From Planctomycetota bacterium (GTDB taxonomy: Bacteria; Planctomycetota; UBA1135), in the NCBI GenBank assembly GCA_021776795.1, contig JAJFFC010000002.1, positions 1-64,000 of the forward strand: a DNA stretch of 64,000 nucleotides, in the 5' to 3' direction. Below are positions 20,212-50,300 of the stretch, piece after piece. Position numbers and translations under genes: made by a program. Positions within the stretch are counted from its first letter, which is position 1. Each line of letters opens with the position of its first letter. Under the pieces are notes generated by a model. The model did no database searches and was not told the DNA's origin. It saw only the letters and a list, made by a program, of their open reading frames with translations.

Positions 20212-20363
20212 ATCAGCCGCTCCCAATAGCGGGGGAAGCAATTATGCTGAACCCGCCACAAAATCATGGGAATAGTAGCCGATGTTAACTGTCAGAAGGG
20301 CGCTGGCACTTTCCCAATTTGCGCCAGATTTGTTCGTTTTGCCCGCACATCGCCAATCCTCCC

Positions 20364-24870: not shown

Positions 24871-24877
24871 CGCGAAC

Positions 24878-27265
24878 ATGTCCTTGCGTTCCATTCTTGT
24901 GGCTGCGGCTTTGGCCGCCTCCCTTTTTTGCAGCGGATGCAGTGAAGGTGCGGCGGACTTCAGCGCTGTGCCGACTGGATTCCCGATTGCTGAGCCGTCG
25001 ACACCGATCACTGACCTCGAAATTGCCGAGAGTCTTACGGTGGAGATCGAAGACAGGCTGTTCCTGATTGGCCAGAAAATGGTCCAAGGAAAGGTCGACG
25101 CCTTGCAAGACATCCTTGCCGCAGACTTCCAAGGCCATTCCTTTGCGGGCCTTCCTGTAGCCACCGAGGAAGTACAAATTCACGATAGTCTGCTGGTGAC
25201 ATACGACGTGAGACAAGCGCAAGTGGGGGATGGCCCCGCTTTTGTGGAGGGGTTGCGCTCGGCTTGGGGTTCGTGGCAGGCCGTCGACTTCGTGCGCTGG
25301 GATATTTTCCGCTGTGAAATCCAGCCTGGGCGCCCAACCTGGGCCAAGGCCAACATGACTCTGCACGTCGTTGGCAATGACGAAGCTGGTCAAGTGCGCA
25401 CCGACCTGCTCACCGTAGATGCGCAGTTGGTTCAGGACAGGGGTAAGTGGGTGTTACACGCCATCGAGCTCCTCGACATGGAGAGTCGCTCTCGCGGCAA
25501 AACCATGTTCACCGACATCAGCAAGGCCGCTGGTGTGGGCTACACCGGGATGCCCAAAGAAGATTCCACGCCCTTCCCGTTTCGCCATTTACGTTTGCCC
25601 TATAACGGTGCCGCAAGTGCCGACATCAATGGCGATGGCATTTGGGATATCTTTGCCTCTGGCAAGGAGCGTAACTTTTTGTACATCGGCAAGGGCGATG
25701 GCACCTTCGAAGATCAGGCCGTGGAGTGGGGCGTTCTGAAGCCAAGTGACGGCACTGGCGCGGTGTTCTTCGATTACGACAACGATGGCGACCAAGATCT
25801 ATTCGTGGCCGGCGAAGGCCACCTTGCCGATGACGGGCGAGAAATGGGCAACCGTCTGCGCCTCTACCGCAATGAAGGCGACCACTTCAAGAATGTCGCA
25901 GAGGAGGTTGGCCTCAACCAATTCATGTTCTCTTACTCCGTCGCCGTCATGGATTATGACCAAGACGGTTGGTTAGACATTTACGTGTGCAACTATGGTC
26001 AATATGGCTTGGAGCGCAACAACTCGTGGCGTGACGGCAACAATGGCGACGTCGATGCCTTGTTCCGCAACATCGAAGGCAAGAGCTTCGAAAACGTACA
26101 GCTTCCAGCTGGCCTCGATACGACGCGCTGGAGCTTTGCTGTTGGTGCCGCCGACTACGATCGTGATGGCGACCAAGACATTTACGTCGCCCATGATTAC
26201 GGCATCAATTCCTTCTACATCAACCAAGGCGACGGCACGTTCAAGGACATTGGCCAAGATTTGGCCGCGGAAGATATGGGTTTTGGCATGGGCGTGTGCT
26301 GGGGTGACCTCAATAACGATGGCCTGCTAGACCTTTACATTTCGAATATGTACGTCCCGGTGGCCACTCGGGTCATCAATCGCCTGCCGATGGTCGATGG
26401 CGTCGACAGCCCGATGAAACTTTCGCGCGGCAACACTATTTTGCTCCAGGAGGAGGGCGGAACCTTCCGCAATCCCGAGAATGAACTCGGGGGCATTCGT
26501 GGCATGTGGGCGTGGGGGTCCGCGGTCAATGACTTTGACCTTGACGGCCGCCTCGATGTCTTCTGCTCCAACGGTTTCTTCACCCGTCCTGGGATTGGAG
26601 ACATCCACAGCTACTTCTGGCGGCACGTCATTGCCACCACCGTGGACTCCGGCATGGCGCCGATGATTGGCAATAACGAAGAAGCCAACAACCCTGCATA
26701 TGTCGGCGGTTTGGCCCGGCGCAGCGGCGAGGGGCGAAGTTGGGCTGGCCACGAGCGCAATAAGCTTTGGTTCAATCGTGGCAGTGAAGGTTTCTTAGAT
26801 CTGTCCGACACCAGTGGAGTGGATTCTCCGGGCGATGGTCGCGCGGCAGTTGCCCTCGACATCGACGACGACGGCGACCTCGACTTGTTCTTAAACGAGT
26901 GGTCATTCTTGGAGCGCAATCGCATCGGCCTGTATCGCAACGATTTAGTCGCGGAGCCGAAGAGTTTCCTCAAGATTCAACTGCGCGCAACGACTGGGCA
27001 ATACCAGGCCGCTGGCGCTGAAGTCATCGTTCACACGCCGGAGGGGCCTTGTAGTCAAGTGCTTTCCTTTGGAACCGGCTTCCTGAGCTCGAATCCCCCT
27101 GAACTAATTTTTGGTTTGGGTGAATCTTCTACCGCCAAGGTGGAAGTGATTTGGCCCGGTGCCATCCGCGAGGGTTTTGGCGAAATCGACGCCGGCTCCC
27201 GCGTTCTCTTAGTAGAAGGCAACGGCAAAGCCGAAGCCATCCCCACGGCGAAGTCCACAGACTGA
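24878..27265 (+). CDS. FG-GAP/ASPIC-UnbV lipoprotein, paralogue 2
   Basis: 795 residues, starting 7 bases after the previous stop. Lipobox FCSGC at residues 17-21. The N-terminal domain (FSAVPTGFPIAEPSTPI, VEIEDRLFLIGQKM, DILAADFQGHSF) is shared with the proteins at 17833 and 27286. The propeller carries DYDNDGDQDLF, DYDQDGWLDIY, DYDRDGDQDIY and DIDDDGDLDLF loops, and the ASPIC/UnbV domain ends the protein. Between paralogues, not only the calcium loops but whole phrases are conserved (FRHLRLPYNGA, MKLSRGNTILLQ, LDVFCSNGFFTRPGIGDIHSYFW), so they probably keep the same fold and a related job. Confidence 0.88.
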   Translation: MSLRSILVAAALAASLFCSGCSEGAADFSAVPTGFPIAEPSTPITDLEIAESLTVEIEDRLFLIGQKMVQGKVDALQDILAADFQGHSFAGLPVATEEVQIHDSLLVTYDVRQAQVGDGPAFVEGLRSAWGSWQAVDFVRWDIFRCEIQPGRPTWAKANMTLHVVGNDEAGQVRTDLLTVDAQLVQDRGKWVLHAIELLDMESRSRGKTMFTDISKAAGVGYTGMPKEDSTPFPFRHLRLPYNGAASADINGDGIWDIFASGKERNFLYIGKGDGTFEDQAVEWGVLKPSDGTGAVFFDYDNDGDQDLFVAGEGHLADDGREMGNRLRLYRNEGDHFKNVAEEVGLNQFMFSYSVAVMDYDQDGWLDIYVCNYGQYGLERNNSWRDGNNGDVDALFRNIEGKSFENVQLPAGLDTTRWSFAVGAADYDRDGDQDIYVAHDYGINSFYINQGDGTFKDIGQDLAAEDMGFGMGVCWGDLNNDGLLDLYISNMYVPVATRVINRLPMVDGVDSPMKLSRGNTILLQEEGGTFRNPENELGGIRGMWAWGSAVNDFDLDGRLDVFCSNGFFTRPGIGDIHSYFWRHVIATTVDSGMAPMIGNNEEANNPAYVGGLARRSGEGRSWAGHERNKLWFNRGSEGFLDLSDTSGVDSPGDGRAAVALDIDDDGDLDLFLNEWSFLERNRIGLYRNDLVAEPKSFLKIQLRATTGQYQAAGAEVIVHTPEGPCSQVLSFGTGFLSSNPPELIFGLGESSTAKVEVIWPGAIREGFGEIDAGSRVLLVEGNGKAEAIPTAKSTD

Positions 27266-27285
27266 GCCTTTCTTGCCACATCCTC

Positions 27286-29679
27286 ATGCACCTTCGACCC
27301 TCCTTGCGGGGGCCACGAGCCATGCTCTTGGCTACCGTGCTCGCGGCACTTAGTTGTAGCCGGGGGGCCGTGGACCTTTCTCAGGTGCCAACAGGATTCC
27401 CTGTTCCTGAGCCCGAGTCGATTCTCGCCGACATGGAGGCCGCGGAATCCTACTCCGTGGAAATCGAAGATGCCCTATTCGTGCTTGGTCGCGAGCTTCA
27501 GGCAAAGAATTGGCCAGCGCTAGAGGAGATCCTCACCCCGGACTTCTTGGCCTCGCCCTTGCCCGCCATCGAGAGTGCGACCAAGGTTGCGCTACCGCTT
27601 GGCGGTATCCAGCATGAGTTCCCCACGGAGAGTTCTAACCCTTCTCCGGGCGATGCTTTTGCCGAGAGTTGGCAGCAGCACCTTGGAGACTGGCAAGAAA
27701 TCGCCACAACTCGGTGGACTCTTCCGCAGGCTGATTTTCAGGTCGGCAGACCCGTTTGGGCGCGAACCTCACTGCAGCTTGAAGTGCACGGCAAGAATGC
27801 CGCTGGCGATGTCGCGTCTTGGTCCCTGGCTGCTACGGCGCAAATGGTCAAAGTGCAAGGCTCTTGGCGTTTGCGTTCCTTTGCCTTGCACCGTTTGCAA
27901 GGGAAGAGTCGGGAGCGGGCGCTGTTCACCGACGTCTCGGTAGATTTGGGCATCGCTTATCGGGAAGAGGTGAGGGAAGATGGCAAACCCTTCCGACAGG
28001 GCGCGACACGGCAGCCCTTCAACGGCGCGGCCTGTGCCGATGTCAACGGCGATGGTTGGTGGGACTTTTTCTTTGCCGGCAAATTGCGCAATAGCTTGTA
28101 CCTTGCCAATGGCCTAGGCGGTTTCCAAGAAGTCGCTGCGGAATGGGGACTCGCGACTCCCGCAGATGGTTCCGGATGCGCCTTCTTCGACTACGACAAC
28201 GATGGCGACCAAGACCTCTTTGTGGCGAGCGAAGGTCGTCGCGAAAAGGACGGCAGCATTCGCGGGCAACCTTGGCGCATGTATCGCCAAGATGACGGGC
28301 GATTTACGGAAGTTGGGGCGGAGCTAGGTTTAGATCAATGCATGGCATCCCAATCCGTGGTCATTCTGGATTACGATCAAGATGGCTGGCTCGATATCTA
28401 CGTTACGAATTACGGGGATCGCCGCACGGAAGACGTGAATTCCTGGCACGACGGTGACAACGGCCAAGCCGATGCCCTCATGCGCAATTTGGCAGGCAAA
28501 GGCTTTCAAGATATGGCCGAGGAAGCTGGCGTTGCCCTGCCGCGGTGGAGTTACGCCGCCGCCGCCGCCGACTTTGACCGAGACGGCGACCAAGATATTT
28601 ATGTTGCGCACGACTATGCGGTGAACGCCTTCTTCCGCAACAATGGTGACGGCACTTTTGTCGAGGTGGGGGCGGAAATCGCTGCTGAGGATTTAGGCTT
28701 TGGCATGGGGGTGAATTGGGCCGACCTCAATCACGACGGACTCCTAGACTTATACATTGCCAACATGTTTGTGCCCGCAGCGGCGCGCATTATGGGCCGA
28801 TTGCAAATCGACGCCAACGACATGGCCATGCCGCACAAGCTGTCTCGCGGCAACACCATCTTGTGGCAACAACCAGATGGCACATTTCGCCTGGCTTCCG
28901 AGGAAATCGGTGGCGTGAACGGTCTCTGGGCGTGGGGAGTTGCCGTCAACGACTTTGACCTCGACGGCTATCTCGATGTCTTCTGCACCAACGGGATGTT
29001 CACGCGCCAGGGTATCGGCGAAATCCACAGCTACTTCTGGCGCAATGTGGTTGCCGCAATGTTGGACCCTAAAGAAGATCCTTCTATCGGCATGCGCGCC
29101 GACCCCAATGGCAGTGCTTTCCGCCAACAACGCGTGCGCCAAGGGCGTGCGGGGCGTTCCTGGGGCGGCCATGAGCGCGACAAGTTTTGGTGGAGCCGGC
29201 AGGGGCAAGATTTTGTCGACCTCTCTGATTTCAGCGGCGTCGACTCTGCGGGCGACGGCCGCGCCGCAATTGCCGTGGATTTCGACCAGGATGGCGACCT
29301 CGATTTGCTTGTGAATGAGTGGTCCTTCACCGAGTTCAACCGCCAGATTCTGTACCGCAACGACGTGCAGGCGCAGCCAATTGGCTATTTGGCGATTCGC
29401 CTACGCGCCACCACGACCCAGTACGAAGCCATTGGCTCCGAGGTCGTCGTGACCACTCCAGAGGGCCCTTTGAGCCAGGTTTTGGTTTGCGGCCACGGCT
29501 TCCTGAGTGCCGGCCCGCCCGAACTTGTGTTCGGTCTGGGTAAACATTCAGACGCCGAGGTCGAGGTCTTTTGGCCTAGCGGTCGCCGCGAGGCCTTTGG
29601 TAGACTTTCCACTAACAGCCAAAATTTGCTCGTGGAGGGCACAGGAAAACCCTTGCCGTTCCCGCACTCCACAGATTGA
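27286..29679 (+). CDS. FG-GAP/ASPIC-UnbV lipoprotein, paralogue 3
   Basis: The frame is open from 27151, but the ATG at 27286 lies 20 bases after the previous gene and starts MHLRPSLRGPRAMLLATVL with lipobox AALSC, giving 797 residues, the same size as its paralogues. The N-terminal domain (VPTGFPVPEPES, VEIEDALFVLGREL), the FG-GAP propeller (DYDNDGDQDLF, DYDQDGWLDIY, DFDRDGDQDIY, DFDQDGDLDLL) and the ASPIC/UnbV domain are all present. It differs more from copy 2 in the first 250 residues than in the propeller. Direct tandem position with copy 2 points to local duplication. Confidence 0.88.
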   Translation: MHLRPSLRGPRAMLLATVLAALSCSRGAVDLSQVPTGFPVPEPESILADMEAAESYSVEIEDALFVLGRELQAKNWPALEEILTPDFLASPLPAIESATKVALPLGGIQHEFPTESSNPSPGDAFAESWQQHLGDWQEIATTRWTLPQADFQVGRPVWARTSLQLEVHGKNAAGDVASWSLAATAQMVKVQGSWRLRSFALHRLQGKSRERALFTDVSVDLGIAYREEVREDGKPFRQGATRQPFNGAACADVNGDGWWDFFFAGKLRNSLYLANGLGGFQEVAAEWGLATPADGSGCAFFDYDNDGDQDLFVASEGRREKDGSIRGQPWRMYRQDDGRFTEVGAELGLDQCMASQSVVILDYDQDGWLDIYVTNYGDRRTEDVNSWHDGDNGQADALMRNLAGKGFQDMAEEAGVALPRWSYAAAAADFDRDGDQDIYVAHDYAVNAFFRNNGDGTFVEVGAEIAAEDLGFGMGVNWADLNHDGLLDLYIANMFVPAAARIMGRLQIDANDMAMPHKLSRGNTILWQQPDGTFRLASEEIGGVNGLWAWGVAVNDFDLDGYLDVFCTNGMFTRQGIGEIHSYFWRNVVAAMLDPKEDPSIGMRADPNGSAFRQQRVRQGRAGRSWGGHERDKFWWSRQGQDFVDLSDFSGVDSAGDGRAAIAVDFDQDGDLDLLVNEWSFTEFNRQILYRNDVQAQPIGYLAIRLRATTTQYEAIGSEVVVTTPEGPLSQVLVCGHGFLSAGPPELVFGLGKHSDAEVEVFWPSGRREAFGRLSTNSQNLLVEGTGKPLPFPHSTD

Positions 29680-29698: not shown

Positions 29699-32600
29699 AT
29701 GAAAATGCTCCCCATGCGCTTTCCCTTTGCTCTTTTACTGGCCTTCGGCGTCGCGTCCTGCGGCCAAGGCGAAGTCGACGGCCCCGAAGAAGAGTTCGAG
29801 GTCACTCAAGAAGACCAACTGGCGCGCGAACGCGCAGCGGTGTTGTTCGCAGAAGAAGACCTGCCTGGTTCGGTCAAGGCCCTGAGCCCTCTAATTGAGC
29901 GCGACGATGCCCTCGGCATCGACCTGTTGCGGATGGGCATCATTCACCTGACTCAGGAAGATGTCGAAGGTGCACGCAAATACTTGCAAGCGGCAGGGAA
30001 AAAGCTCAAGCGGTCGCCCTCCTTGGCCTACAACTTGGGGCGCATTGCCTCGCGCGATGGCAATTTTGAGGCTTGCGTAGAGCATTTCGGCCGGGCCCAC
30101 GAACTCGCCCCAGACGACACCCCTTCCTTGTTCCAGTTGGCCTCGGCTTACGCCACTCTTGGCGACGACAAGGCCGTCGGTCTGTTTCAGGAGCTTCTGG
30201 ATAAGGGCGTAGAGAACACCAATAGTTGGTATCTCGCTGCTTTGTATCGCCTCGGGCGCTTCCATTTGGAATCGGGCGACGCTGCCGCATCTGCCGAAGC
30301 GATGGGCGACTTCAATCGCCTCCAGGCCACGGGCCTCGCCACCATGTCTTCGACGGATATGGACCGTGGCAACTACGGTACTTTGGAACAGCCAGCTCCC
30401 GTGGGCTTTGCCGGTGCCAAAGAGGTAACCCTTGCCTTGGAACCTGCGGAAACGCTCTCCGACTTGGCGGGCATGACCGGCTTCATGGTGGTGGATTTGA
30501 TTGATGACTGGGTGATGCCGAGTGCGGACAGCAAGGTGGTGCCAACGATTGGTTCGACCAACCTAATGGCTTGGGGCCCAACGGGCGTCAAGGCAGCCAC
30601 TCCCACGGCATCGGGCTCGTGGCTGGTCTCGCTCCTGTGGCCAGAGTCGGTCGAGGTGGTGCAAGGGCTCGACTTTGACCAGGACGGCGACCTGGACTTG
30701 TTCATCTACGGCGATGGCGAACTTGCCCTGCTGCGCCAAGACAACGGTGCTTTCGCCGACGCTGGCGTCACGATGCCGGCGTCTCCTGGCCTTGTCCGCG
30801 ACGTGCGCGTGGTCGACCAAGACCATGAAGGAGACCTAGATTTGCTCTTGGTGGGGGACTTTGGCGCCCGTTTGTGGCGTGCCGATGGCGCTGCCCAAGG
30901 TGGTGAGTTCGCCGACATCAGCGACATTAGTGGGGTCAACCACACAGGCGCCCTGCAATGGTGTGTGACCGAAGATTTTGACACCGATTCCGATGTCGAC
31001 TTCCTGGTCGGCGGCGATCAGGGTGTGGTTTGGTACTCGAACCTGCGTGGTAGTCGTTTTGAAACTCTTTCGGCCGGTTTTGCTCAGGTTGCTGACACCG
31101 TGGCCCCCGAGGTGCGCGACGCCAACGCCGACGGGCGTCCGGATATCCGTTTTGCCGATGGTAAATGGTGGGCTGGCGCTGCTGGAGCACGCTTTGTTGA
31201 GAGCGACTTGAGCTTGCCTGCCACCGCAACTTTGGCGGACCTTGACCGCGATTCTGTGCAAGATCGCCTCAGCCTGAGCGCAGATGGCGTGAGTTTCGAA
31301 AGGGGCAAAGACACCGGCACCGGCCATATGGTTTTGGCCCTTCGCGGCACTGCCGATAATCGTCGCGCAGTGGGTGCCATTGTCGAGTACCGCGCCGGCC
31401 CGATGTACCGCCGCGTGTATTGGCGTGGCGAGCCGCAGATTCTGGATTTCGGCGGCCAGCAAACGGCGGATTGGTTGAAGGTGACTTGGACCAACGGCGT
31501 GACGCAGTTTGGGGTGGACATTCCGAATGGAGAGAACATCATCTTGACCCAGAAAGAGGGTTTGGCTGGATCTTGCCCCTTCTTGTACACCTGGAATGGT
31601 GAGAAGTACGAGTTCATCTCCGATGTCCTCGGCGCAACACCCCTCGGACTGCCGATGGCAGAGGGTATGTATGTGCCGCCGGACCATGACGAATATGTTT
31701 TGGTACTTGGTGAGCAACTTGCCCCGAAAGATGGCTTCCTCGATGTCCAGTTCACCGAAGAGCTGCGCGAAGTCACTTATCTCGACAAGATTCGTCTAGA
31801 TGTGGTGGATCACCCGGAAGGCACCGAGCTCTACCCCAACGAAAAGTTCACCTTCCCGCCCTTCCCCGAAGCGCATAACCATTTTGTGGAAGATCCGGTA
31901 TTGCCGAGCTCCGCACGTGGCAGCGACGGAAAGGACTGGACCGAGTCTTTGCAGGCGATTGACCTCAACTTTGCCGTGCCCTTTGATCACTACCAAGGCA
32001 CGCTACCGAGCGATGAGCCGGGCGGCGGTCAGTTCTTAGGTTTGGCGCCGCATCACAGTCTGGAAATCAGCTTTGCGGACGACAGCATCGCCTCGGCCGA
32101 TAAGTTGCGCTTGCTCTTCACCGGCTGGTTCTACTGGAGCGTGGCTAGTGTCAACATGGCCGCAAGCCGCACGCCTGGAATCGACTTCGTGCCGCCCATG
32201 CTGGAAGTCCCTGATGGGGAAGGTGGCTGGCGCATGGTGGAACCGCCGATTGGCTTCCCTGCCGGCAAGCTCAAGACCATGGTGATTGATGTCACTGACA
32301 TTCTGGTTCGAGAAGATCCGCGGATTCGCGTTTCGAGCACCTTGCGCCTGTACTGGGATTGCATTCGTCTTGCGACCGATGGCGACAACACGCCAAACCG
32401 CATCACCAGTCTTGACCCTGCCTCGGCCGATCTTTGGTTCCGCGGTTTCAGCAAGCCGGTCGAGATGGAGCAGTCTTCCGAGCTTCTGTTGGAGTGGTTC
32501 GACTGGAGTGAACTGGAGCCAGCGCCACGCTGGAATCAGCACCCTGGTTTGTACACTCGCCTCGGCGACGTCTTGCCCCTGGTGCAAGAGGCCGAAGACA

Positions 32601-32911
32601 TGTTCGTGGTCATGGGCTCTGGCGACGCCCTCCACGTGCGTTTCGATGCCAGCCAACTGCCGGAGCTTCCGGATGGATGGCGTCGTGATTACTTGGTGTA
32701 TCTCGATGGCTGGGCCAAAGACCGCGACCACAGTTGCGCCGATGTCGAATACACCGAGCCCTTCCCCTTCCATGGCATGAGCGGCTTCCCTTACGGAGAA
32801 GACGAGCATTTCCCTGACGACCCTGAGTACTTGGAGTGGCGTCTGGAATGGTTGACCCGCCCTGCGCGTTTCTTGCTTGACGAATACACCGCCGAAGCAT
32901 CCTCGAAATGA
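29699..32911 (+). CDS. TPR and FG-GAP lipoprotein with large unrecognised C-terminal region
   Basis: A 1070-residue exported protein, lipobox FGVASC near residue 21. Residues about 38 to 205 form TPR-like helical repeats (AYNLGRIASRDGNFEACVEHFGRAHELAP region). Residues about 300 to 540 carry degenerate FG-GAP units (DFDQDGDLDLF, DQDHEGDLDLL, DFDTDSDVDFL), and 540 to 620 resemble ASPIC/UnbV. From about residue 625 a ~440-residue region begins CPFLYTWNGEKYEFISDVLG and contains many Trp, Tyr and Asp residues; I cannot name its domain. It overlaps the radical SAM gene by 4 bases (ATGA), so the two proteins are made together, making this the closest exported partner of that enzyme. Confidence 0.82.
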   Translation: MKMLPMRFPFALLLAFGVASCGQGEVDGPEEEFEVTQEDQLARERAAVLFAEEDLPGSVKALSPLIERDDALGIDLLRMGIIHLTQEDVEGARKYLQAAGKKLKRSPSLAYNLGRIASRDGNFEACVEHFGRAHELAPDDTPSLFQLASAYATLGDDKAVGLFQELLDKGVENTNSWYLAALYRLGRFHLESGDAAASAEAMGDFNRLQATGLATMSSTDMDRGNYGTLEQPAPVGFAGAKEVTLALEPAETLSDLAGMTGFMVVDLIDDWVMPSADSKVVPTIGSTNLMAWGPTGVKAATPTASGSWLVSLLWPESVEVVQGLDFDQDGDLDLFIYGDGELALLRQDNGAFADAGVTMPASPGLVRDVRVVDQDHEGDLDLLLVGDFGARLWRADGAAQGGEFADISDISGVNHTGALQWCVTEDFDTDSDVDFLVGGDQGVVWYSNLRGSRFETLSAGFAQVADTVAPEVRDANADGRPDIRFADGKWWAGAAGARFVESDLSLPATATLADLDRDSVQDRLSLSADGVSFERGKDTGTGHMVLALRGTADNRRAVGAIVEYRAGPMYRRVYWRGEPQILDFGGQQTADWLKVTWTNGVTQFGVDIPNGENIILTQKEGLAGSCPFLYTWNGEKYEFISDVLGATPLGLPMAEGMYVPPDHDEYVLVLGEQLAPKDGFLDVQFTEELREVTYLDKIRLDVVDHPEGTELYPNEKFTFPPFPEAHNHFVEDPVLPSSARGSDGKDWTESLQAIDLNFAVPFDHYQGTLPSDEPGGGQFLGLAPHHSLEISFADDSIASADKLRLLFTGWFYWSVASVNMAASRTPGIDFVPPMLEVPDGEGGWRMVEPPIGFPAGKLKTMVIDVTDILVREDPRIRVSSTLRLYWDCIRLATDGDNTPNRITSLDPASADLWFRGFSKPVEMEQSSELLLEWFDWSELEPAPRWNQHPGLYTRLGDVLPLVQEAEDMFVVMGSGDALHVRFDASQLPELPDGWRRDYLVYLDGWAKDRDHSCADVEYTEPFPFHGMSGFPYGEDEHFPDDPEYLEWRLEWLTRPARFLLDEYTAEASSK

Positions 32912-35118
32912 AAACACTTCTCATCTTTCCGCCGCAAGGCCACTTCACGCAGCCCTTTTTGGCGCTGCCCTCCTTGCAGGCATACTTGAAGCAAGAGGGC
33001 TTTCCCGACACCCACATGATGGACGCCAACATCGAGGCCTACGATTGGTTGTTGTCGAAGGAGCGCCTGCAACAGGCAGCAGCGGCGGTGAAATCCAATG
33101 GTCGTCTGGCGGAACTCGAAGCCAAGGACGCCTTTGATTACAACGACATGATGGAGTACCGGGCCTATCTGCAATCAGAACTGGTTGGAGAGTGGACGGC
33201 CGAAAATGTAGAAGACGCGAAGAGCGTGATGCGCGATCCTGAGCGCTTTTACGACCGCGACACCTACACTTGGGCTGCCAAGGTGATGGAGCACGGCATG
33301 GCCTTGACTTCGTCGCGTTACTTTCCCACTCACCTTTCTGCGCATGGCTTCTCGATGAAGCATTCTCTGCAGAAAACTGACGACATCATTGCCGGTGCGT
33401 TTGACGAAGAGACCAACCCGTACCTGGACTTCTTCCGCGAAGTCACGATGCCCAAGATCAAGGAGCTTGATCCTGATTTAATCGGCTTCTCGGTGACCTT
33501 TGGTAGTCAAGCGATTCCTAGCTTGGCGCTTTCGGCCATGATTAAGGAGTGGAAGCCTGAAGTGCACATCACTTGGGGTGGCGGCCTGATGGCCTATGTT
33601 GCGCACAAACTCTCAAACCGCGCCGAGATTTTCGACACCGTGGACAGCATGGTTGTCTTGGAAGGCGAGCGTCCGCTGAAGGCGATTGCCGAAGCTGTGC
33701 GTGACGGCAAAGATGTCTATGGCATCGCCAATGTCATTCATCGCGACGACGAAGGCATGGTGCACGTGGCACACGAGCAAGACCCACTGTCGATCGACAC
33801 CTTGCCCGCGCCTGATTTCGATGGCCTTCCGCTGAACAAATACTTCACGCCGGAGTTCATCGTGCCGCTGTCGATCACTCGCGGCTGCTATTGGGGTAAG
33901 TGCGTGTTCTGCACCCTGCACGAAGTCATTGGCCCAGGCTATCGCGGGCGCACGATTGAACGCGTAATCGATGACATCCGCAGCCTGCAAGAGAAGCATG
34001 GGGCCAAGCGCTTCTATTTCCCGATTGAAGACCTGCCGCCGAACATGGTGCGTAAGTTGCCGCGGGCCATTCTTGACGCCGGCCTGGATATTGAATGGTG
34101 GTGCGACGCCAAGCTCGAACCCGAGGTTTTCACCGATGAGGTTTGTGAGGAATTGGCGGCTTCGGGCTGCAAACGCCTGGCCTTCGGCTATGAATCGGCA
34201 AGCAAACGCGTGCTCGACCTCATGTGCAAGGGTTCTGATCCGGAGCCTGGTATGGGCGTGATTCAACGCGTGCACAAGGCTGGCATTTCCGTCACCCTTT
34301 ATGTGATGGTGGGCTTCCCCACTGAAACCGAGGAAGAGGCTCAGCTGACGATGGACACCTTGTTGGCCAACCGCGAATATTTCGAAGAAGTCAGCATGCG
34401 CGTGTTCTACCTCGACTTTAAGTCTGAAATCTATAAGCGCTACCGCGAGTTCGCCATTTCTGACATTGTCGAAGAGGAAGGATGCGACCTTCAGGTGTAC
34501 TTCGACTTCAGCACTTCAGAAGGCATGAGCCGGAAAGAGGCGCGAGCGAAGTACTTGGAAATGCTCGGCGAGTTGAAAAGTCACCTCCCCGTGTTTCAGA
34601 ACCAAAACTTGCTGTACCACGAGTTGAAGTCGCACTACTTCTTGCATCTTGCGCGTGCTGGCAACGTGAAGAACTTGCTCGAGGGCCCATTCGCCGAAGT
34701 GCCTGCGCCTGAGTTGTACGACGACTCCCCAGTCGGCAAGGCCGAGCACCTACGCATGCTCGATAGTCGCTTCGATCGTGATGACGTCGACGAAGCCATG
34801 GAGCGCGCTGTCGATGGCCTCACCCTGCCGCGGTATCAGTTTGACCTGATTACCGGCAAAGAAATTGAGGCCATGAACCGTCAGGCGCCTATTGTGCGCC
34901 CACGTCCGTCGGTCTTGGTGTTGAATACCAAGACTGCGGAACTGGCAAGTATTTCCCCAGAGGGTAAGCAATTGCTTGATGGCCTGAACGGCTCACGCAC
35001 CGTTGCCGAAATCCTTGCCGACTTCCCGGAACAGCAGCGCGCTGGTGTTCGGGAGTTTCTACAACACCTGCTCCAGTTCGGAATGTTAGAACAGGAGCCT
35101 CTTGGAGCCATCGCATGA
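32908..35118 (+). CDS. B12-binding-type radical SAM protein with C-terminal PqqD-like domain
   Basis: 736 residues, cytoplasmic. The N-terminal ~230 residues have the Rossmann-like start LLIFPPQGHFTQPFLALPSL and the ITWGGG turn of cobalamin-binding radical SAM enzymes, without the DxHxxG base-off motif, as is usual there. The radical SAM core (about 315-560) binds its 4Fe-4S cluster through Cys327, Cys332, Cys335 (CYWGKCVFC, a CX4CX2C spacing). The last ~75 residues (LNTKTAELASISPEGKQLLDGL, then RTVAEILADF) match PqqD-like RiPP recognition elements that bind leader peptides. It overlaps the preceding lipoprotein gene and the following 62-residue protein gene by ATGA. A role in modifying that small protein or an exported neighbour is inferred. 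Confidence 0.85.
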   Translation: MKTLLIFPPQGHFTQPFLALPSLQAYLKQEGFPDTHMMDANIEAYDWLLSKERLQQAAAAVKSNGRLAELEAKDAFDYNDMMEYRAYLQSELVGEWTAENVEDAKSVMRDPERFYDRDTYTWAAKVMEHGMALTSSRYFPTHLSAHGFSMKHSLQKTDDIIAGAFDEETNPYLDFFREVTMPKIKELDPDLIGFSVTFGSQAIPSLALSAMIKEWKPEVHITWGGGLMAYVAHKLSNRAEIFDTVDSMVVLEGERPLKAIAEAVRDGKDVYGIANVIHRDDEGMVHVAHEQDPLSIDTLPAPDFDGLPLNKYFTPEFIVPLSITRGCYWGKCVFCTLHEVIGPGYRGRTIERVIDDIRSLQEKHGAKRFYFPIEDLPPNMVRKLPRAILDAGLDIEWWCDAKLEPEVFTDEVCEELAASGCKRLAFGYESASKRVLDLMCKGSDPEPGMGVIQRVHKAGISVTLYVMVGFPTETEEEAQLTMDTLLANREYFEEVSMRVFYLDFKSEIYKRYREFAISDIVEEEGCDLQVYFDFSTSEGMSRKEARAKYLEMLGELKSHLPVFQNQNLLYHELKSHYFLHLARAGNVKNLLEGPFAEVPAPELYDDSPVGKAEHLRMLDSRFDRDDVDEAMERAVDGLTLPRYQFDLITGKEIEAMNRQAPIVRPRPSVLVLNTKTAELASISPEGKQLLDGLNGSRTVAEILADFPEQQRAGVREFLQHLLQFGMLEQEPLGAIA

Positions 35119-35303
35119 GTGATTCGAAAAAGAAGCAAGCTAAGTCTTCCGAAGAGGAAGAACCCAAGGTCAAGCCGCAGGCTGAAGAAGAAGTTCAAGC
35201 CCAAGATGGCGGGGACGACGACGCAGAATTGCCAAACCCATTCCGCTTTCGCCGCTTGGACGGGCAAGACCCGATGAAGTACGAAGACGTCGCCGATAAG
35301 TAA
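35115..35303 (+). CDS. 62-residue acidic protein, candidate substrate of the radical SAM enzyme
   Basis: Its ATG overlaps the radical SAM stop codon (ATGA), which argues that it is a real gene, and the next gene starts 14 bases later. Residues 1-38 are Glu/Asp/Lys/Gln-rich and low in complexity (KKKQAKSSEEEEPKVKP); residues 39-62 are less biased (ELPNPFRFRRLDGQDP then MKYEDVADK). There is no Cys, no signal peptide and no membrane segment. Position beside a PqqD-domain radical SAM enzyme and the leader-plus-core look fit a RiPP precursor, but it could equally be a small accessory or chaperone-like protein. No known family recognised. Confidence 0.6.
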   Translation: MSDSKKKQAKSSEEEEPKVKPQAEEEVQAQDGGDDDAELPNPFRFRRLDGQDPMKYEDVADK

Positions 35304-35317: not shown

Positions 35318-37078
35318 ATGAATGACTCATCCTCAACGGGCCAAGCGCCCGGCGGCGGCCTATTGCTGCCTACTGTCAGCGCCGTTCTTGCGGTGATTTT
35401 AATTGGCTTGGCTTGCTGTGCGGCGTTCACGCCGGGGCCGCTTCCGCGTGACCAGCCCCATGGCGATTCCAGGCATGGGGCCGCCGCGGCGATGGCCTTT
35501 ACCGAGGTGGCGCAGCAGTTGGGGCTAACCATGCGCCATGCTCCAGGAAAACGCGAACGCACCTTGCCGGAGGACACCGGCTCGGGCTTGGCTTGGGGAG
35601 ACATCGACGCTGATGGCGATTGGGACTTGTATGTCGTGAACTACGCGGCGCCCTGGGAAGGGCAGGCGCCCGATGCTGGGAGCAATCGTTTGTTCCGCAA
35701 CGATGGGGGGCGCTTTGTCGACATCACCGACAAGGCTGGCGTCGCCGATGCAGAGAGCTTTGGCCTAGGTGCAAGCTTTGCTGATTACGACAACGATGGC
35801 GACCAAGATATTTACGTCACCAACTTTGGGCCTAATCGCTTGTTTCGTAACGAAGGAAGCAACCGCTTCACCGAAGTGGCCAAGGCAGCTGGTGTAGACA
35901 ATGCCCTGCTTTCGACGGGAGTTGCGTGGGGCGATGCCGACCGCGATGGCGACCTCGACCTCTACGTGTGCAACTACGTTGACTGGGTTCCCGGGGATCC
36001 CAATGAAATGGTGGTCGCCGAAGATGAGGGAGTGACCATGAGCATTCCGATAACGGTCGATCCCTATTCGTATGAGCCGCAGCGCAATGCTTTTTACCGC
36101 AACAATGGCGATGGCACTTTTGAAGACGTTGCCGAAGAGTTAGGCATTGCCAATCCAGAAGGGCGCAGCCTAGAGGTGGTGATGATCGACCTCGATGCCG
36201 ACGGCTGGCTCGACCTCTACGTCAACAACGACCTTTCCACCAACCGCCTGTACCGCAACATGGGTGGCACCAAACTGGGCTTTGCCGATCTTTCCGACAT
36301 GACTGGCACGGCAGATCCGCGGGGTTCGATGGGTTTGGGCATTGGTGAGTTAGGCAATATGGGCGGCACCGCCGATGGTCTTCCCGATTTGGTGTTGACG
36401 CATTGGTTCACCGAGGCCAACGCGATTTATCGTAGCCGGAGCCACTCTGGTTCAGACCTCGGCTATGAAGACGCGAGCGAACTCCTTGGCATGTCCGGCC
36501 CATCTGCGCCAACCGTGGGGTGGGGGACATGCTTGGTCGATTTCGATCTCGATGGCGATCTCGATGTCATGGTTGCAAACGGCAGCACCAGCGAGCAAGA
36601 ACAAAATCTAGACTTGCTCATTGCCGAGCCGTTGCATTTGTTCCAAAGCGATGGCGCACGTTTCCAAGAAGTGAGCGCACAAGCTGGTTCGGTATTCGCT
36701 GGGCGCTACAGCGCACGCGGATTGGCCGCAGCGGACTTTGATCAGGACGGTGACGTCGACGTTGCTGTCAATGACAATCACGGCTCGCTTTTGTTGCTGC
36801 GCAATGACACTCCAACCACCTACCAGTCCTTGGTCGTGACTTTCGATGCTCCCTCTCACCAGGTTTTCGGCGCCCGGGTGGAGGCCACCATCGGCGGCGA
36901 ACGGCATGTGCGCTGGGCGGTGAGTGACTCCAGTTTCCTCAGCGGGCATTCTTCAGAGGCAATTTTCGGCCTTGGCGACGCTGGCAAAGTGGAAAAGCTG
37001 GTGGTGCATTGGGTTGGCGGCGAAACCTCGGTCTGGGAAGACCTGGAAGCGGGTTCTCTCCGCGCCACGCGCGAGTAG
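35318..37078 (+). CDS. FG-GAP/ASPIC-UnbV protein (CRTAC1-like), intact homologue of the broken gene
   Basis: 586 residues with an uncleaved or Sec-type N-terminal hydrophobic segment (about 14-36, LLLPTVSAVLAVILIGLACC). The body begins FTEVAQQLGLTMRHAPGKRERTLPEDTGSG and carries calcium loops DADGDWDLY, DYDNDGDQDIY, DADRDGDLDLY, DLDADGWLDLY, DFDLDGDLDVM and DFDQDGDVDVA, then the C-terminal ASPIC/UnbV domain (VSDSSFLSGHSSEAIFGLG). It ends the tightly packed run and aligns from end to end with the pseudogene at 463-2246. Extracellular location is likely; function unknown. Confidence 0.88.
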   Translation: MNDSSSTGQAPGGGLLLPTVSAVLAVILIGLACCAAFTPGPLPRDQPHGDSRHGAAAAMAFTEVAQQLGLTMRHAPGKRERTLPEDTGSGLAWGDIDADGDWDLYVVNYAAPWEGQAPDAGSNRLFRNDGGRFVDITDKAGVADAESFGLGASFADYDNDGDQDIYVTNFGPNRLFRNEGSNRFTEVAKAAGVDNALLSTGVAWGDADRDGDLDLYVCNYVDWVPGDPNEMVVAEDEGVTMSIPITVDPYSYEPQRNAFYRNNGDGTFEDVAEELGIANPEGRSLEVVMIDLDADGWLDLYVNNDLSTNRLYRNMGGTKLGFADLSDMTGTADPRGSMGLGIGELGNMGGTADGLPDLVLTHWFTEANAIYRSRSHSGSDLGYEDASELLGMSGPSAPTVGWGTCLVDFDLDGDLDVMVANGSTSEQEQNLDLLIAEPLHLFQSDGARFQEVSAQAGSVFAGRYSARGLAAADFDQDGDVDVAVNDNHGSLLLLRNDTPTTYQSLVVTFDAPSHQVFGARVEATIGGERHVRWAVSDSSFLSGHSSEAIFGLGDAGKVEKLVVHWVGGETSVWEDLEAGSLRATRE

Positions 37079-37353
37079 AGGGAGCAGTTGGAGCTAAGCT
37101 CCTAGGCCATAAACACTTGAGTGCACGGCCAATCAGGGCAATATAGTGCCCGAAGGCGCTCCCGCAACCCTTGTTGCGATTCGGTCTCAATAGATGTCTA
37201 AGTCCTGCATTCTGCACCATTTAGGCGCAGAAAAAATCTATTGAACCTGAGGAAGTCTGCTTCCCACTAGGGCCCGGCTCAGGTATCCTCTGCCGCCAAA
37301 TCCGAAATTTGTCACTCATGCATGGTGACGAACCGTCGGAACCCTTCCTTCCC
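37079..37353. other. 275-base intergenic region before the alternative complex III operon
   Basis: No convincing gene. It begins with a small hairpin (37090-37102, GGAGC-TAA-GCTCC) with no T-tract, a weak terminator candidate at best. A promoter for actA is expected here because the two gene groups are functionally distinct, but I could not point to a -35/-10 pair with good spacing. Confidence 0.4.
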
Positions 37354-38010
37354 ATGAGTGTGTACCACTTTCCCAGGTGGACGGATCGCCTCCGTCCCAT
37401 CATGGGGATCGCCGCCGTTCTCGTGCCCACCTACCTGGTGGTGCTCGTAGCCTACGCGTTCTCCGCGGACAACCTGAACGTCGGCTATGCCCCAGAGCAG
37501 CCGATTCCGTTCAGCCACCAGTTGCATGCCGGCGAGCTCGGTATGGACTGTCGCTACTGCCACAACACAGTTGATCAAGGCGCAGCGGCATCCATTCCAC
37601 CGACCTCGACCTGCTTGAACTGTCACACGCGCGTGCGCACCGACAGCAAGCTGTTGGCACCGCTGTTTGAGGCTGCTGAAACGGGCGAACCCATTGAGTG
37701 GGTGCGCGTTCACGACCTGCCCGAGTTTGCGTACTTCAACCACAGCGCGCACTTGAGCGCTGGTGTGAGCTGCGTTTCTTGTCACGGCCGTGTGGACCAA
37801 ATGGAAGTGGTCCGCCAAGAGCAACCGCTGAGCATGGGTTGGTGCCTGGAGTGCCACCGTGATCCGGCGCCGCACATTCGCCCGCAAGAACACCTCACTG
37901 ATCTTGCTTGGAAGCCAGAAGTCTCCCCCGGTGCCCGTGCACTTGGCGAGGCACTGATTCAAGAGAGAAACATCAACCCGCGCACGGACTGCACCTCTTG
38001 TCACCGATGA
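37354..38010 (+). CDS. actA: Alternative complex III subunit A, pentahaem cytochrome c
   Basis: 218 residues from the ATG at 37354 (MSVYHFPRWTDRLRP), which matches the family's short N-terminus; earlier in-frame starts add unrelated residues. One membrane helix (about 10-33) anchors a periplasmic domain with five CXXCH haem sites: CRYCH (Cys66), CLNCH, CVSCH, CLECH and CTSCH. In the complex, ActA takes electrons from the iron-sulfur subunit ActB towards ActE or the oxidase. Its stop overlaps the actB start (ATGA). First gene of a respiratory operon running to about 51.2 kb. Confidence 0.93.
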   Translation: MSVYHFPRWTDRLRPIMGIAAVLVPTYLVVLVAYAFSADNLNVGYAPEQPIPFSHQLHAGELGMDCRYCHNTVDQGAAASIPPTSTCLNCHTRVRTDSKLLAPLFEAAETGEPIEWVRVHDLPEFAYFNHSAHLSAGVSCVSCHGRVDQMEVVRQEQPLSMGWCLECHRDPAPHIRPQEHLTDLAWKPEVSPGARALGEALIQERNINPRTDCTSCHR

Positions 38011-41006
38011 ACCGTTCCGACAACACTACGCGCTACTGGCGCAGCCTCAACGATCTGGAGCAAACGGAAGAGTTCCAGGGCATGATGGCGACCGAGTTCC
38101 CGGGCGGGCCAGAAGAACACTGGACAGCCTCAACGCGTCGCCGTTTCTTGCAACTGATGGGTGCCTCTGTGGCCTTGGCTGGCGCAACCAGCTGCCGCTG
38201 GAAGGAAGAGACTATCCGTCCGCTTGCCACCCGCGATGAAAACCGCGTTCCGGGTACGCCCAAGACCTACGCCAGTCACCTCACACTCGGTGGTTTTGCG
38301 CAGGGCACCTTGGTCACGGCCTTTGACGGCCGCCCGAGCAAGATTGAGGGTAACCCCAAGCATCCAGAGTCCCTGGGCGCGACTTCGGTTTACGCCCAAG
38401 CGGCCACCTTGCACCTCTACGACCCCGATCGCAGCCGCGGCATCGCGCGCATGGCGGGGGGAGAGCAAGACAGCGACCTAGCTTCCTTCGAAGCGGCGCT
38501 GAAGGGCGTTATGGACAAGGCCAGCGGCACCAATGGCAAAGGCCTTGCGGTGTTGGCTCCACCGACATCCTCGCCAACCATCAACCGCCTGCGCGGTCGC
38601 TTGTTGTCGAAGTTCTCCGAGGCCACTTGGGTGAGCTACTCGCCGATGTCTCGCGACAACGAAGTCGATGGCTGCCGCCTCGCCTTTGGCGTGAGCGCTC
38701 GTCCGTATTACCGCATGGACAAGGCACGAGTCATCGTCGCTCTCGACGACGACTTCCTGCAAGACGGACCCTCTGCTCTGCGCCTGACCCGCGAAGTCGC
38801 TTCGCGCCGCAAGCCAGAAAACGGATGGATGAACCGCATCTATTCGGTCGAAGCGGACTTCACCTCGACTGGTGCCTTCGCGGATCACCGCCTGCGCATG
38901 CGCTCGAGTGACATCGGTCGTTTTGTCGTGGCTTTGCGCGCCATGGTCGAAGGTAAGGACAGCAGCGAGTTCAGTGGCAAGGCCCACCAAGTCCTGGCGG
39001 CGATGGCGGAAGACCTTCGCGCCAACAAAGGCGACGTCTGCATCACTTGCGGGCCGAACCAGCCTGCGGCAGTGCACGCCCATGTGCAGGCACTCAACGT
39101 CTACCTCGGCAATGCCGATCGCACCGTGGCTTACCTGCCGGCAACCGCCGTCGGTTCGCCTCTGAAGGAAGTGCAAGCTCTGGTCTCTGCCATGAACGGC
39201 GGCGAGGTTTCGAGCTTGGTCATCCTTGGCGGCAACCCGGTCTACGACATGCCGGCCGACTTGGAGTTCGGCGCTGCCCTGGGCAAGGTCGAAACCAGCA
39301 TTCATCTCGGTCAATACCGCGATGAAACTGCACTCGCTTGCACCTGGCACGCCCCGCAAACGCATGAGCTGGAGTCCTGGACCGATGCCCTCGCTTCCGA
39401 TGGCACCCTGTCCATCGGCCAGCCGATGATTGAAGCTCTGTGGGACGGCATGGCCGACACTGAGTTGCTTTCGCGCTTGTTCGGCGAGAAGACCTCGGCT
39501 CACGATGCGGTGCGTGAAACCACGCGCCTCGACGACAAAGCTTGGCGCGTCGCGCTGCACGAAGGTGTGGTTGCTGGCAGTGCCGCTCTGCCGTTGAACG
39601 TGAAGCTCGGTCAGCTTCCCGAAATCCCTGCCGCGGCTTCCGGATTGGAAGTGCGCTTTGTGACATGCCGCACGATTGCCGATGGTCGCTACGCCAACCT
39701 CGGTTGGTTGCAGGAGCTGCCAGACCCGATGACCAAGTTGACTTGGGACAACGCCGCCATGGTGAGCTTTGCCACGGCCAAGAGTCTTGGTCTGCAGCAC
39801 GAAGGCATGGCACGCCTCACGGTCGCGGGTCGCACCCTCGACGTGGCTGTGTTCCTGATGCCAGGTCATGCCGACGACTCCATCACCTTGGCGCTCGGTT
39901 ACGGCCGTACCGCCGCTGGTCATGTTGCCGGTCTCAACGATGACTGGGTCGAACCGGTGGGCTTCGATAGCTACAAGTTGCGCGGAACCGACAGCATGTA
40001 TTTGGCCACTGGCGCCAGCGCGACCTCGACCGCCGGTACCTACCGCCTGGCCACCACCCAAGATCACTTTGCGATGGATGAAATCGGTCGCAAAGGTTTG
40101 GAGCAGCGCATGCCCAACTTGGTCAAAGAGGGCGACGTCAGCACCTACGAAAAGAACTCCAAGTTCGCCAAGGATGCTCCAGATTTCTGGGGCCCGGAAG
40201 TGACCTTGTGGCAGGAAGTGGAGCAGACCAAAGATCCCGACCACCGTTGGGGTATGGCCATCGACCTCAGCTCTTGCACCGGTTGCGGTACCTGCACCAT
40301 TGCTTGCCAATCGGAGAACAACATCTCGGTGGTCGGCAAAGAGCAAGTGTTGAAAGGTCGTGAAATGGCATGGATTCGCATGGACCGCTACTTCGTCGGT
40401 TCTGCCGAAGAGCCGAGCGCGGTGAGTCAGCCAGTTGGCTGCCAGCACTGCGAGTTGGCGCCATGTGAGTCGGTTTGCCCGGTGGGTGCCACGGTACACA
40501 CCAGCGAAGGCCTCAACGACATGGTTTACAACCGTTGCATCGGCACTCGCTACTGCTCGAACAACTGCCCGTACAAGGTGCGGCGCTTCAACTTCTTCAA
40601 CTTCAATAAGGACCAAGCCAAAGCTGGCAACGAGGTCCTGCAGATGGCCGCGAACCCAGATGTCACTGTGCGCAGCCGCGGTGTGATGGAGAAGTGCTCC
40701 TACTGTGTGCAGCGCATTGAGCGCGCGCGGATTACGACGCGCAATGTCGATCGCAGCATCTTCCTTCCAGATGGTTCGGTGAAGTCGGCCTGTGAACAGG
40801 CTTGCCCTGCCGACGCCATCTCCTTTGGCGACCTGATGGACGAAACGAGCAAAGTCAGCAAAGACCACGCCAACGATCGCACCTACAGCTTGCTCGCTGA
40901 GTTGAACATCAAACCGCGGACGAAGTACCTAGCCCGCATTCGCAACCCGCATCCATCACTGGCTGTGGCTCACGCCGCTGCCGAGGAGGGTGTCCACCAT
41001 GGCTGA
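38007..41006 (+). CDS. actB: Alternative complex III subunit B, fused molybdopterin-like and ferredoxin-like protein
   Basis: 999 residues from the ATG at 38007. A Tat signal ([20 protein letters not shown]) sits near residue 45. Residues about 75-700 resemble the molybdopterin oxidoreductase fold ([27 protein letters not shown] region); in this subunit family the cofactor is absent. Residues about 745-960 form the ferredoxin-like part with four cluster motifs: [37 protein letters not shown] and CSYCVQR with CEQACP. It passes electrons from quinol oxidation at ActC to the ActA haems. The N-terminal 45 residues before the Tat motif are normal for ActB. It overlaps actA by 4 and actC by 8 bases. 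Confidence 0.94.
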
Positions 41007-42384
41007 TTCCTCTGCAATCACACACGAAGCCGTCTTCCCGCCCGCCTTGGTGCAAGGGAAGAATGACTTTCACTCCATTACGGAGACCGTTTGCGGTGTC
41101 CTCGAGGCACCCAAGCCGCCCAAGTCCTGGTACATGATCTTCGGTACCGCGGTCGCCCTGCTTGGCGTCCTCGGCGCCATGATTGTTTACCTGATCGCCA
41201 CGGGTGTTGGTGTCTGGGGTAACAACCAGCCGGTTGCCTGGGGTTGGCCGATTGTGAACTTCGTGTTCTGGGTTGGTATCGGTCACGCCGGTACGCTCAT
41301 CTCGGCCGTGTTGTTCTTGTTCCGCCAAGATTGGCGCACAGGCATTAACCGATTCTCCGAGGCGATGACCATCTTTGCGGTCATCTGCGCGGGTATGTTC
41401 CCCGCGATTCACGTCGGTCGTATCTGGGTGATTTGGTGGGTGTTCCCACTGCCTAACCAGATGAGCATGTGGCCGAACTTCCGTTCGCCACTGCTGTGGG
41501 ACGTGTTCGCCGTCTCGACCTACTTCTCGGTCTCCCTGCTGTTCTGGTACATGGGATTGGTTCCTGACCTCGCCACTGTGCGTGACCGCGCCAAGACCAA
41601 GGCCCGCCGTTTCTGGTACGGCTTGTTTGCGCTCGGCTGGAACGGCTCGAACCGTCAGTGGCACCGTTACGAGCGCGCCTACTTGCTGTTGGCCGCACTC
41701 GCCACGCCACTGGTGCTCTCGGTGCACTCGGTCGTGTCCTTTGACTTCGCGACTTCGCAGTTGCCGGGTTGGCACACCACCATCTTCCCGCCGTACTTTG
41801 TTGCGGGCGCGATTTTCTCCGGTTTCGCCATGGTGCTTACCCTGTCGATTCCGGCGCGCAAAATCTTCGGATTGGAAGAGCTCATCACCATGCGCCACAT
41901 TGACAACATGTGCAAGGTGATCATGGCGACCGGCATGATGGTCGGTTACGCCTACGCGATGGAGTTCTTTATGGCCTGGTACTCGGGTAACGAGTACGAG
42001 GGCTTCGCCTTCATCAACCGCGCCTTCGGCCCCTACTGGTGGGCTTACTGGATCATGGTCAGCTGCAACGTGTTGTCGCCGCAGATCTTCTGGTCCAAGA
42101 AGATGCGCAATAACCTGACGGTGGTCTTCATCATGTCGATCTTCGTCAACATCGGCATGTGGTTCGAACGCTTCGTGATTACGGTCACCTCGCTCAACCG
42201 CGACTTCCTGCCGTCTAGCTGGCATTACTTCTCGCCGACTTGGGTCGATGTCCTGACCCTCCTCGGTAGCTTCGGTCTCTTCTTCACCTTCTTCATGCTC
42301 TTCTGCCGCTACCTCCCGCAGGTCGCGATTTCTGAAGTCAAGAACGTGTTGCCAGAGGCGCATCCTCACCACGAGGACCACTAG
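40999..42384 (+). CDS. actC: Alternative complex III subunit C, NrfD-like quinol-binding protein
   Basis: 461 residues from the ATG at 40999, which overlaps the actB stop. An NrfD/PsrC-type integral membrane protein with about ten helices; family stretches include [25 protein letters not shown] and [19 protein letters not shown], with conserved His in the GHAG turn. It holds the quinol-oxidising site next to ActB. It is separated from the actD-actE fusion by 11 bases. Confidence 0.93.
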
Positions 42385-42395
42385 GGAGCCGAACC

Positions 42396-43907: not shown

Positions 43908-43917
43908 GAATCGAATC

Positions 43918-45234: not shown

Positions 45235-45238
45235 AGCC

Positions 45239-45499
45239 ATGGTCATTCAACACGACGAAATCAACGCCACGCGCTTGGTCAACATCGGCCTAATCGCCAT
45301 CTTCTTGTCGATTGCCGTGGCCTACGCTTCGGCTGGCTTGTACCGCAGCCTCAGCTCAGAACTGACGGCAGACCGCAACATCCAGGATCAAATCGCCGAG
45401 ACTCGGGCCTTGCGCCAAGAGCAACTCGATGCGATTGATGCCACGGGTGAAATGACCCTCGCCGAAGCTCGCGCGGCCATCATCGAGGCCAACCAGTAA
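45239..45499 (+). CDS. Small single-helix membrane protein within the respiratory operon
   Basis: 86 residues. One membrane helix (about 12-34, LVNIGLIAIFLSIAVAYASAGLYR) followed by a charged, probably periplasmic helical tail (DRNIQDQIAETRALRQEQ). It lies 4 bases after actF and 7 before the SCO gene, so it belongs to the operon. Alternative complex III can contain a small single-helix subunit (ActG in Rhodothermus), but the match is by position and topology, not sequence. Confidence 0.65.
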   Translation: MVIQHDEINATRLVNIGLIAIFLSIAVAYASAGLYRSLSSELTADRNIQDQIAETRALRQEQLDAIDATGEMTLAEARAAIIEANQ

Positions 45500-45506
45500 A
45501 GCACTC

Positions 45507-47383: not shown

Positions 47384-47395
47384 AAGGCTAGAAAC

Positions 47396-49141: not shown

Positions 49142-49149
49142 GTGATTAC

Positions 49150-49929: not shown

Positions 49930-49931
49930 AC

Positions 49932-50297
49932 ATGGCCGACTCCTCACATAACCACGACGCTCACGACGACCACGGGCTTGCCCATCCGGTCCCGCTGAAG
50001 CTGCTGTTTGCCGTCTTCTTTACGCTGGTCGGTCTCACGATTTTGACCGTGATCACCGGGCAAATGACTTTCGCGGGCTTCGACTTGGCTCTGGCCATGG
50101 TCATTGCCACTTGCAAAGCCACCTTGGTGTGCCTGATTTTCATGCACCTCAAGTACGACAAGCCATTCCTTGGCATGATTTTCTTGTTCTCGGTTCTGTT
50201 TGTGGGCCTGTTTTTGGCCTTCACATTCTTGGACTCTAATGAGTACAACGCAGACATCAATGCCTGGGTGCGTGACAACATGACGATTAGTCAGTAA
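49932..50297 (+). CDS. Cytochrome c oxidase subunit IV
   Basis: 121 residues, three membrane helices (about 18-37, 43-62, 76-97), starting with a His/Asp-rich segment (NHDAHDDHGLAHP). Matches the prokaryotic COX4 (CtaF-like) family, with the stretch LVCLIFMHLKYDKPFL. A small stabilising subunit; 2 bases after coxC. Confidence 0.85.
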   Translation: MADSSHNHDAHDDHGLAHPVPLKLLFAVFFTLVGLTILTVITGQMTFAGFDLALAMVIATCKATLVCLIFMHLKYDKPFLGMIFLFSVLFVGLFLAFTFLDSNEYNADINAWVRDNMTISQ

Positions 50298-50300
50298 ATC

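Follow-up and report, generated by a model that had tools for sequence, protein, structure and literature searches.

Known pathways for ribosomally synthesized and post-translationally modified peptides (RiPPs) mostly keep the leader of the precursor and vary its core, and the precursors PqqA and MftA give cofactor-like products. Cobalamin (B12)-dependent radical S-adenosylmethionine (SAM) enzymes catalyze reactions other than C-methylation as well. Here we describe a pair of overlapping genes from a bacterium of the Planctomycetota, located in a stretch of 64,000 nucleotides that we refer to as the window (positions 1 to 64,000 of contig JAJFFC010000002.1, assembly GCA_021776795.1). The first gene encodes a B12-binding radical SAM enzyme that ends in a PqqD-like RiPP recognition element (RRE), and the second encodes an acidic protein of 62 residues. 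We consider it probable that the two constitute a RiPP-type pair, in which the small protein is held by the RRE and its tail is modified at the B12/radical SAM core to give a conserved internal product.

The pair resembles the pyrroloquinoline quinone (PQQ) system (PqqA, PqqD, and PqqE) in having a PqqD-type domain, a short candidate precursor, a radical SAM enzyme, and a predicted product that is conserved across species. It differs in that the enzyme is of the B12-binding class and has the RRE fused at its C-terminus, in that the small protein has no conserved Glu-x3-Tyr (no tyrosine is invariant across clades), and in that no PqqB, PqqC, or PqqF neighbors were seen. As in mycofactocin (MftA, MftB, and MftC), an RRE and a radical SAM enzyme are accompanied by a short precursor whose very C-terminal end is conserved, but the tails here end in Asp-Lys rather than in the Val-Tyr of MftA, the RRE is fused, and MftC is not a B12 enzyme. 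Among curated models, the best NCBIfam match of the enzyme, spanning its B12 and radical SAM domains, is TIGR03975 (the rSAM_ocin_1 C-methyltransferases), and ApyD (NF050148) is a secondary match; no MNIO (DUF692) gene, however, was noticed in the neighborhoods scanned here. Finally, in the biphenomycin-type pbs cluster a B12-radical SAM enzyme and an RRE likewise act on a short precursor, but the RRE protein of that cluster partners an MNIO, its B12 enzyme cross-links ortho-tyrosines (PMC12257519), and most homologs of the window precursor lack its letters FRF. Judged by its sequence, the pair appears to be RiPP-like, with a candidate precursor and an RRE, while its enzyme scores below the cut-offs set for TIGR03975 and ApyD and its small protein carries neither the PQQ nor the mycofactocin signature. 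We found no prior description of it in the open-licence papers searched, and nothing matching it in two papers on RREs (PMC12710340 and PMC7470986).

Results

The Enzyme Carries an RRE and Overlaps a Short Gene

The features of the pair are as follows.

32908..35118, plus strand: B12-binding radical SAM enzyme with C-terminal RRE, 736 aa (open reading frame [ORF] with ATG start, Pfam, AlphaFold2 model, PDB fold matches)
33439..33687, plus strand: B12-binding (Rossmann) domain, residues 178–260 (Pfam PF02310, 2.2e-7; 31.2 bits, slightly below the cut-off of 32.1)
33871..34359, plus strand: radical SAM core, residues 322–484 (Pfam PF04055, 4.7e-18), with CX4CX2C at Cys327, Cys332, and Cys335, all three invariant across 63 homologs
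34885..35100, plus strand: PqqD-like RRE, approximately residues 660–731 (PqqD and NCBIfam profiles in homologs; fold matches)
35115..35303, plus strand: 62-aa candidate precursor, an ORF with ATG start that overlaps the enzyme gene by ATGA, conserved in 69 further loci
35115..35240, plus strand: variable, low-complexity, acidic and lysine-rich N-terminal part of the candidate precursor
35241..35270, plus strand: candidate recognition motif FRFRRLDGQD, at a conserved position ahead of the tail and predicted to bind the RRE (counterpart in other clades, LDLTVExVEER)
35271..35300, plus strand: conserved C-terminal core PMKYEDVADK

The two ORFs and their overlap, the cobalamin fold of the N-terminal part, and the cluster cysteines had all been proposed from the letters alone in a preliminary description of the window, and each was borne out. 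The AlphaFold2 model of the enzyme had a mean pLDDT (predicted local distance difference test) of 92.1, and the PDB structures closest to the full-length model were the B12-radical SAM enzymes OxsB, TsrM, MgmA, and CysS. With its B12-binding domain, its radical SAM domain, and the three cluster cysteines, the protein is a cobalamin-dependent radical SAM enzyme.

The C-terminal domain, called PqqD-like in the preliminary description, was placed within PqqD/RRE when we checked it with hidden Markov models, and its fold agrees. The match of the window's own domain to the PqqD profile is weak (E-value 0.015; 16 bits versus a cut-off of 23.4). The same profile matched 13 of 23 homologous C-terminal domains, at best with 1e-5, and the NCBIfam models PqqD_rel_X, PQQ_PqqD, and ScmD matched 11, 5, and 4 of the 23, respectively. 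When the domain was modeled alone with AlphaFold (pLDDT 84.6), the top PDB match of the model was the lasso-peptide RRE TbiB1 bound to leader (probability 0.99); PqqD and the RRE of the sactipeptide enzyme CteB were also matched, as were, lower, TigE and another lasso RRE. No RRE came back when the profile of the domain was run against PDB sequences. By profile and by fold, then, the enzyme ends in a PqqD/RRE domain with the winged-helix RRE fold.

The Enzyme and the Small Gene Occur Together

We scanned 84,980 species genomes and obtained 79 loci for the enzyme, whose named sources were all Planctomycetota or unclassified bins, the isolates Pla163, Engelhardtia mirabilis Pla86, and Poly30 among them; the hosts are a large group of planctomycete bacteria, mostly uncultured. 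Gene calls are rough in these GC-rich genomes, and tails were detected with patterns derived from the family, so that a tail of a very different kind would escape detection. By this measure a gene with the same type of tail lay downstream in 69 of the 79 loci, mostly no more than 240 bases away and in two cases at 1.3–1.9 kb. Seven of the ten exceptions are contig ends or truncations (L056, L059, L073, L085, L090, L094, and L101), and the other three are an assembly gap within the small gene (L063), an enzyme that stands alone but whose small gene is found on another contig of its genome, G054 (L089), and a paralog that is 30% identical (L108). The preliminary description had asked whether a short gene always follows the enzyme, and apart from these cases it does. 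The L108 paralog is itself followed, after position 12190, by an acidic ORF of 71 aa whose tail is different (SEDVAARDRGPRQAF) and which may represent another precursor family.

The same picture emerged from 154 genomes of the order, a tally that leaves out three genomes with distant enzyme matches only. Both enzyme and tail were present in 77 of them and neither in 73; three had the enzyme only and one the tail only. The enzyme-only genomes (G082, G102, and G113) represent a contig end, a gap, and a truncation, respectively, and the tail-only genome (G103) is 76% complete. These counts are not independent, since the species are related, and most of the genomes are metagenome bins. The tail gene is almost always present in a single copy per genome; it was present in 4 of the 26 genomes from the family to which the window belongs, and it is near-universal in family f8. 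A short precursor gene that adjoins a modifying enzyme and is conserved in its homologs is what is expected of a RiPP pair, and this is the arrangement we observed.

The GC-rich window contains many ORFs of 40–60 aa, and the small gene might accordingly be suspected of being a chance ORF after the enzyme. We rejected this explanation, whose probability we regard as negligible, because the small gene recurs, the co-occurrence of enzyme and tail is near-perfect, and the tail is conserved at the protein level across families, with synonymous codon changes at conserved sites that indicate selection on the protein.

A Conserved Tail Follows a Drifting N-Terminal Part

The small protein had been described as having an acidic first half and a more varied tail. 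The acidic half, taken there for a possible leader, is present, but it is the part that is not conserved; conservation resides instead at the extreme C-terminus (ending in KYEDVADK in the window), behind FRFRRLDGQD. The last 22 or so residues are conserved and the final ten or so hardly vary. Between pairs whose enzymes are 50–70% identical, identity is 74–82% over the last 22 residues and only 10–12% over the N-terminal 30, so the tail is not random, and pairwise enzyme identity correlates at 0.92 with tail identity and at 0.32 with that of the N-terminal 30 residues. E-D-x-A-D-K is invariant in the tails of clade A (27 of 27, the window included), and R, P, E-T-N, and F-D-K are invariant in the small proteins of clade B (40 sequences). 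The type of tail (DVADK, NVFDK, or DIADK) follows the enzyme clade, and on the enzyme tree types A, B, and C each form a single clade, which requires two changes, the fewest possible. Cysteine is absent from all 70 small proteins. The enzyme and the small protein form a dedicated pair, with a core conserved at the protein level and correlated evolution. Regular absence of the short gene from homologs, a random tail, and a C-terminal domain outside PqqD/RRE had been named beforehand as findings that would speak against such a pair; all three checks were carried out, and none gave that result.

In clade C (L058/L177, L104/L167, L069, and L166) one enzyme is followed by two tandem small genes, for example the candidate precursor gene at L167:7094-7282 and the gene after it. 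Both members of the tandem have a motif of the LDLxxE type, and their cores differ, being KEGFTGQE(R/M) in one and YG(S/R)EDIADK, with which the clade C tail ends, in the other. We infer from this recurrence of a similar motif ahead of two different cores that the recognition part may be separate from the core.

An acidic small protein with an invariant C-terminus has the layout of LysW, and this likeness, together with the confinement of tail variation to clades, would suit a carrier or scaffold that holds some other substrate at its C-terminus, in the manner of LysW or through extension by a PEARL-type ligase, for the enzyme to modify before release. We judge such a carrier to be quite unlikely. 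The C-terminal residue is lysine in clades A, B, and D but arginine or methionine in the second precursor of clade C, and no ATP-grasp ligase, PEARL, or tRNA-dependent enzyme was found among the recurrent neighbors scanned, no genome-wide ligase search having been made. The preliminary description had offered both precursor and carrier as roles for the small protein; of these, a dedicated substrate composed of a recognition part and a core appears to be the best reading.

A phylum-wide profile search also revealed distant homologs that have no RRE, in families f49, f78, f96, and f69, and none of the known tails was found with them. These proteins are about 580–685 aa long (L169–L172, L174–L176, L178, and L179). 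Family f47 keeps the RRE, which is clear in four of five members and marginal in L165, and each of its five genomes has exactly one RNIFDK gene, on the same strand and 0.3–6 kb downstream; a reversed-pattern control for RNIFDK in f47 gave zero matches. RRE and small gene thus tend to be gained and lost together, the exception being L173, to which we return in the Discussion.

Neighboring Genes

Two neighbors flank the pair.

29699..32911, plus strand: TPR (tetratricopeptide repeat) and FG-GAP protein, overlapping the enzyme start by ATGA (Pfam; neighbor scan)
35318..37078, plus strand: FG-GAP/UnbV_ASPIC protein after the small gene (Pfam)

Since the gene for the TPR/FG-GAP protein also overlaps its successor by ATGA, three genes are coupled. 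It occupies the position held in other clade A loci by a CRTAC1-like FG-GAP/UnbV_ASPIC gene, which lies directly upstream of the enzyme in nearly all of those outside the window's family; the window and L032–L034 have FG-GAP proteins nearby in its place. Clade B loci mostly have another B12-radical SAM enzyme directly upstream, and this second enzyme matches ApyD best among the NCBIfam models (about 196 bits, under the cut-off), so that the best matches of both B12 enzymes are to RiPP-maturing enzymes, below cut-offs; one of ten members matches PqqD, weakly (0.049). The CRTAC1-like gene of clade A and the second enzyme of clade B would be in keeping with a small protein that is a non-substrate partner, such as a chaperone or an allosteric subunit, of an enzyme that acts elsewhere, for instance on the CRTAC1-like protein. 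This seems to us highly unlikely, for the upstream gene changes from one clade to the next, whereas the small gene stays the same; the window's family has UnbV_ASPIC proteins in each of its 26 genomes, whether or not the system is present; and the two tandem precursors found in clade C are easier to understand as substrates. The case for an UnbV_ASPIC protein as an obligatory partner is weakened by the same 26 genomes and by the second B12 enzyme that takes its position in clade B.

Downstream, a pentaheme c554-like cytochrome frequently comes after the small gene in clade B, and behind the small gene, either directly or past the pentaheme cytochrome and a VWA gene, comes a nuo (complex I) operon in at least 13 loci of this clade, the relocated copy of G054 among them. 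Loci with both the pentaheme cytochrome and nuo include L086:12397-21919, L074, L079, L087, L107, L109, L066, L067, and L157. In the window the genes directly after the cluster (37225-51194) are those for alternative complex III (pentaheme ActA, ActB, and NrfD-type ActC), SCO1, and cytochrome oxidase. The nuo operons, and the alternative complex III and cytochrome oxidase operon of the window, would suit a modified but uncut tail with a place in a respiratory complex, either as one of its small subunits or as a redox-active accessory, a proposal that overlaps with the RiPP-type pair and departs from it in what becomes of the product. We think it unlikely: pentaheme proteins are also found in genomes without the system and are absent from some with it, which weakens the pentaheme cytochrome as an obligatory partner too, and alternative complex III adjoins the pair in the window only and so may reflect inheritance of gene order. 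Indeed, the respiratory and UnbV_ASPIC links may both be inherited gene order, given that no genome of the family is without UnbV_ASPIC and that the pentaheme protein turns up even where the system is missing.

Elsewhere in the window, 17833-29679 and 35318-37078 make up a run of FG-GAP/UnbV_ASPIC paralogs, with a TPR-cytochrome c554 protein at 20319-23096; the genome has 13 UnbV_ASPIC matches. Genes of the 2-oxoacid dehydrogenase type, an E2 acyltransferase flanked by two E1 components, occupy 12793-17743, and a separate radical SAM protein of 292 aa is encoded on the minus strand at 51830-52708.

Discussion

The binding, chemistry, cleavage, and role of the pair are matters that we infer. 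In the RiPP-type pair that we favor, the RRE would bind the short hydrophobic-alternating motif just ahead of the tail (FRFRRLDGQD in the window, its clade B counterpart being LDLTVExVEER). The C-terminal core of about ten residues would be modified at one or more positions by the B12/radical SAM core of the enzyme. C-methylation would be the likeliest reaction, as the nearest curated model, TIGR03975, covers C-methyltransferases, albeit with a cut-off far above the score of our enzyme; another cobalamin-radical reaction is the alternative. In clade B, the adjoining second B12-radical SAM enzyme probably adds a further modification.

Several observations weigh against a RiPP-type pair. A hypervariable N-terminal part combined with a conserved C-terminus is unusual for a RiPP, and the residues common to all ADK and FDK tails (V/I/T-x-D-K) present no obvious target for methylation. 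The enzyme scores 125.3 bits against TIGR03975, whose cut-off of 281.85 is not reached and whose members differ from it by its C-terminal RRE, and 75.6 bits against ApyD, whose cut-off of 750 bits is not approached and whose precursor is different. The Foldseek E-values for the C-terminal domain are weak (about 0.1 to 0.4, the best being 0.1), as expected for so small a domain, so that the argument rests on the identity of the top matches, which are RREs. Copy L173 in family f49 has an RRE-like tail but no small gene was identified with it. And, as the preliminary description had noticed in the window, no peptidase, protease, or ABC exporter was found among the neighbors scanned, which did not include every neighbor.

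With its core near-invariant, its gene in single copy, and its presence close to universal in family f8, the system is more likely to make a conserved internal product, either cofactor-like or a peptide subunit in modified form, than an antibiotic for export, as far as sequences can tell. That this product is a new Planctomycetota peptide-derived cofactor or permanently modified peptide subunit, made by way of an RRE-fused B12-radical SAM enzyme and linked to respiratory electron transfer, we put forward only as a tentative and somewhat doubtful possibility. Because the system is a minimal one of two genes and is present in the cultured Pla86, Pla163, and Poly30, its substrate, site, and chemistry are directly testable.

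B12-radical SAM enzymes are not, to our knowledge, known to make a conserved product of this kind. If the proposal is true, it would be the first conserved-core product of its kind built by RRE-fused B12-radical SAM enzymes. The core is near-fixed across families while the rest of the small protein drifts, which is the pattern expected of a cofactor-like product.

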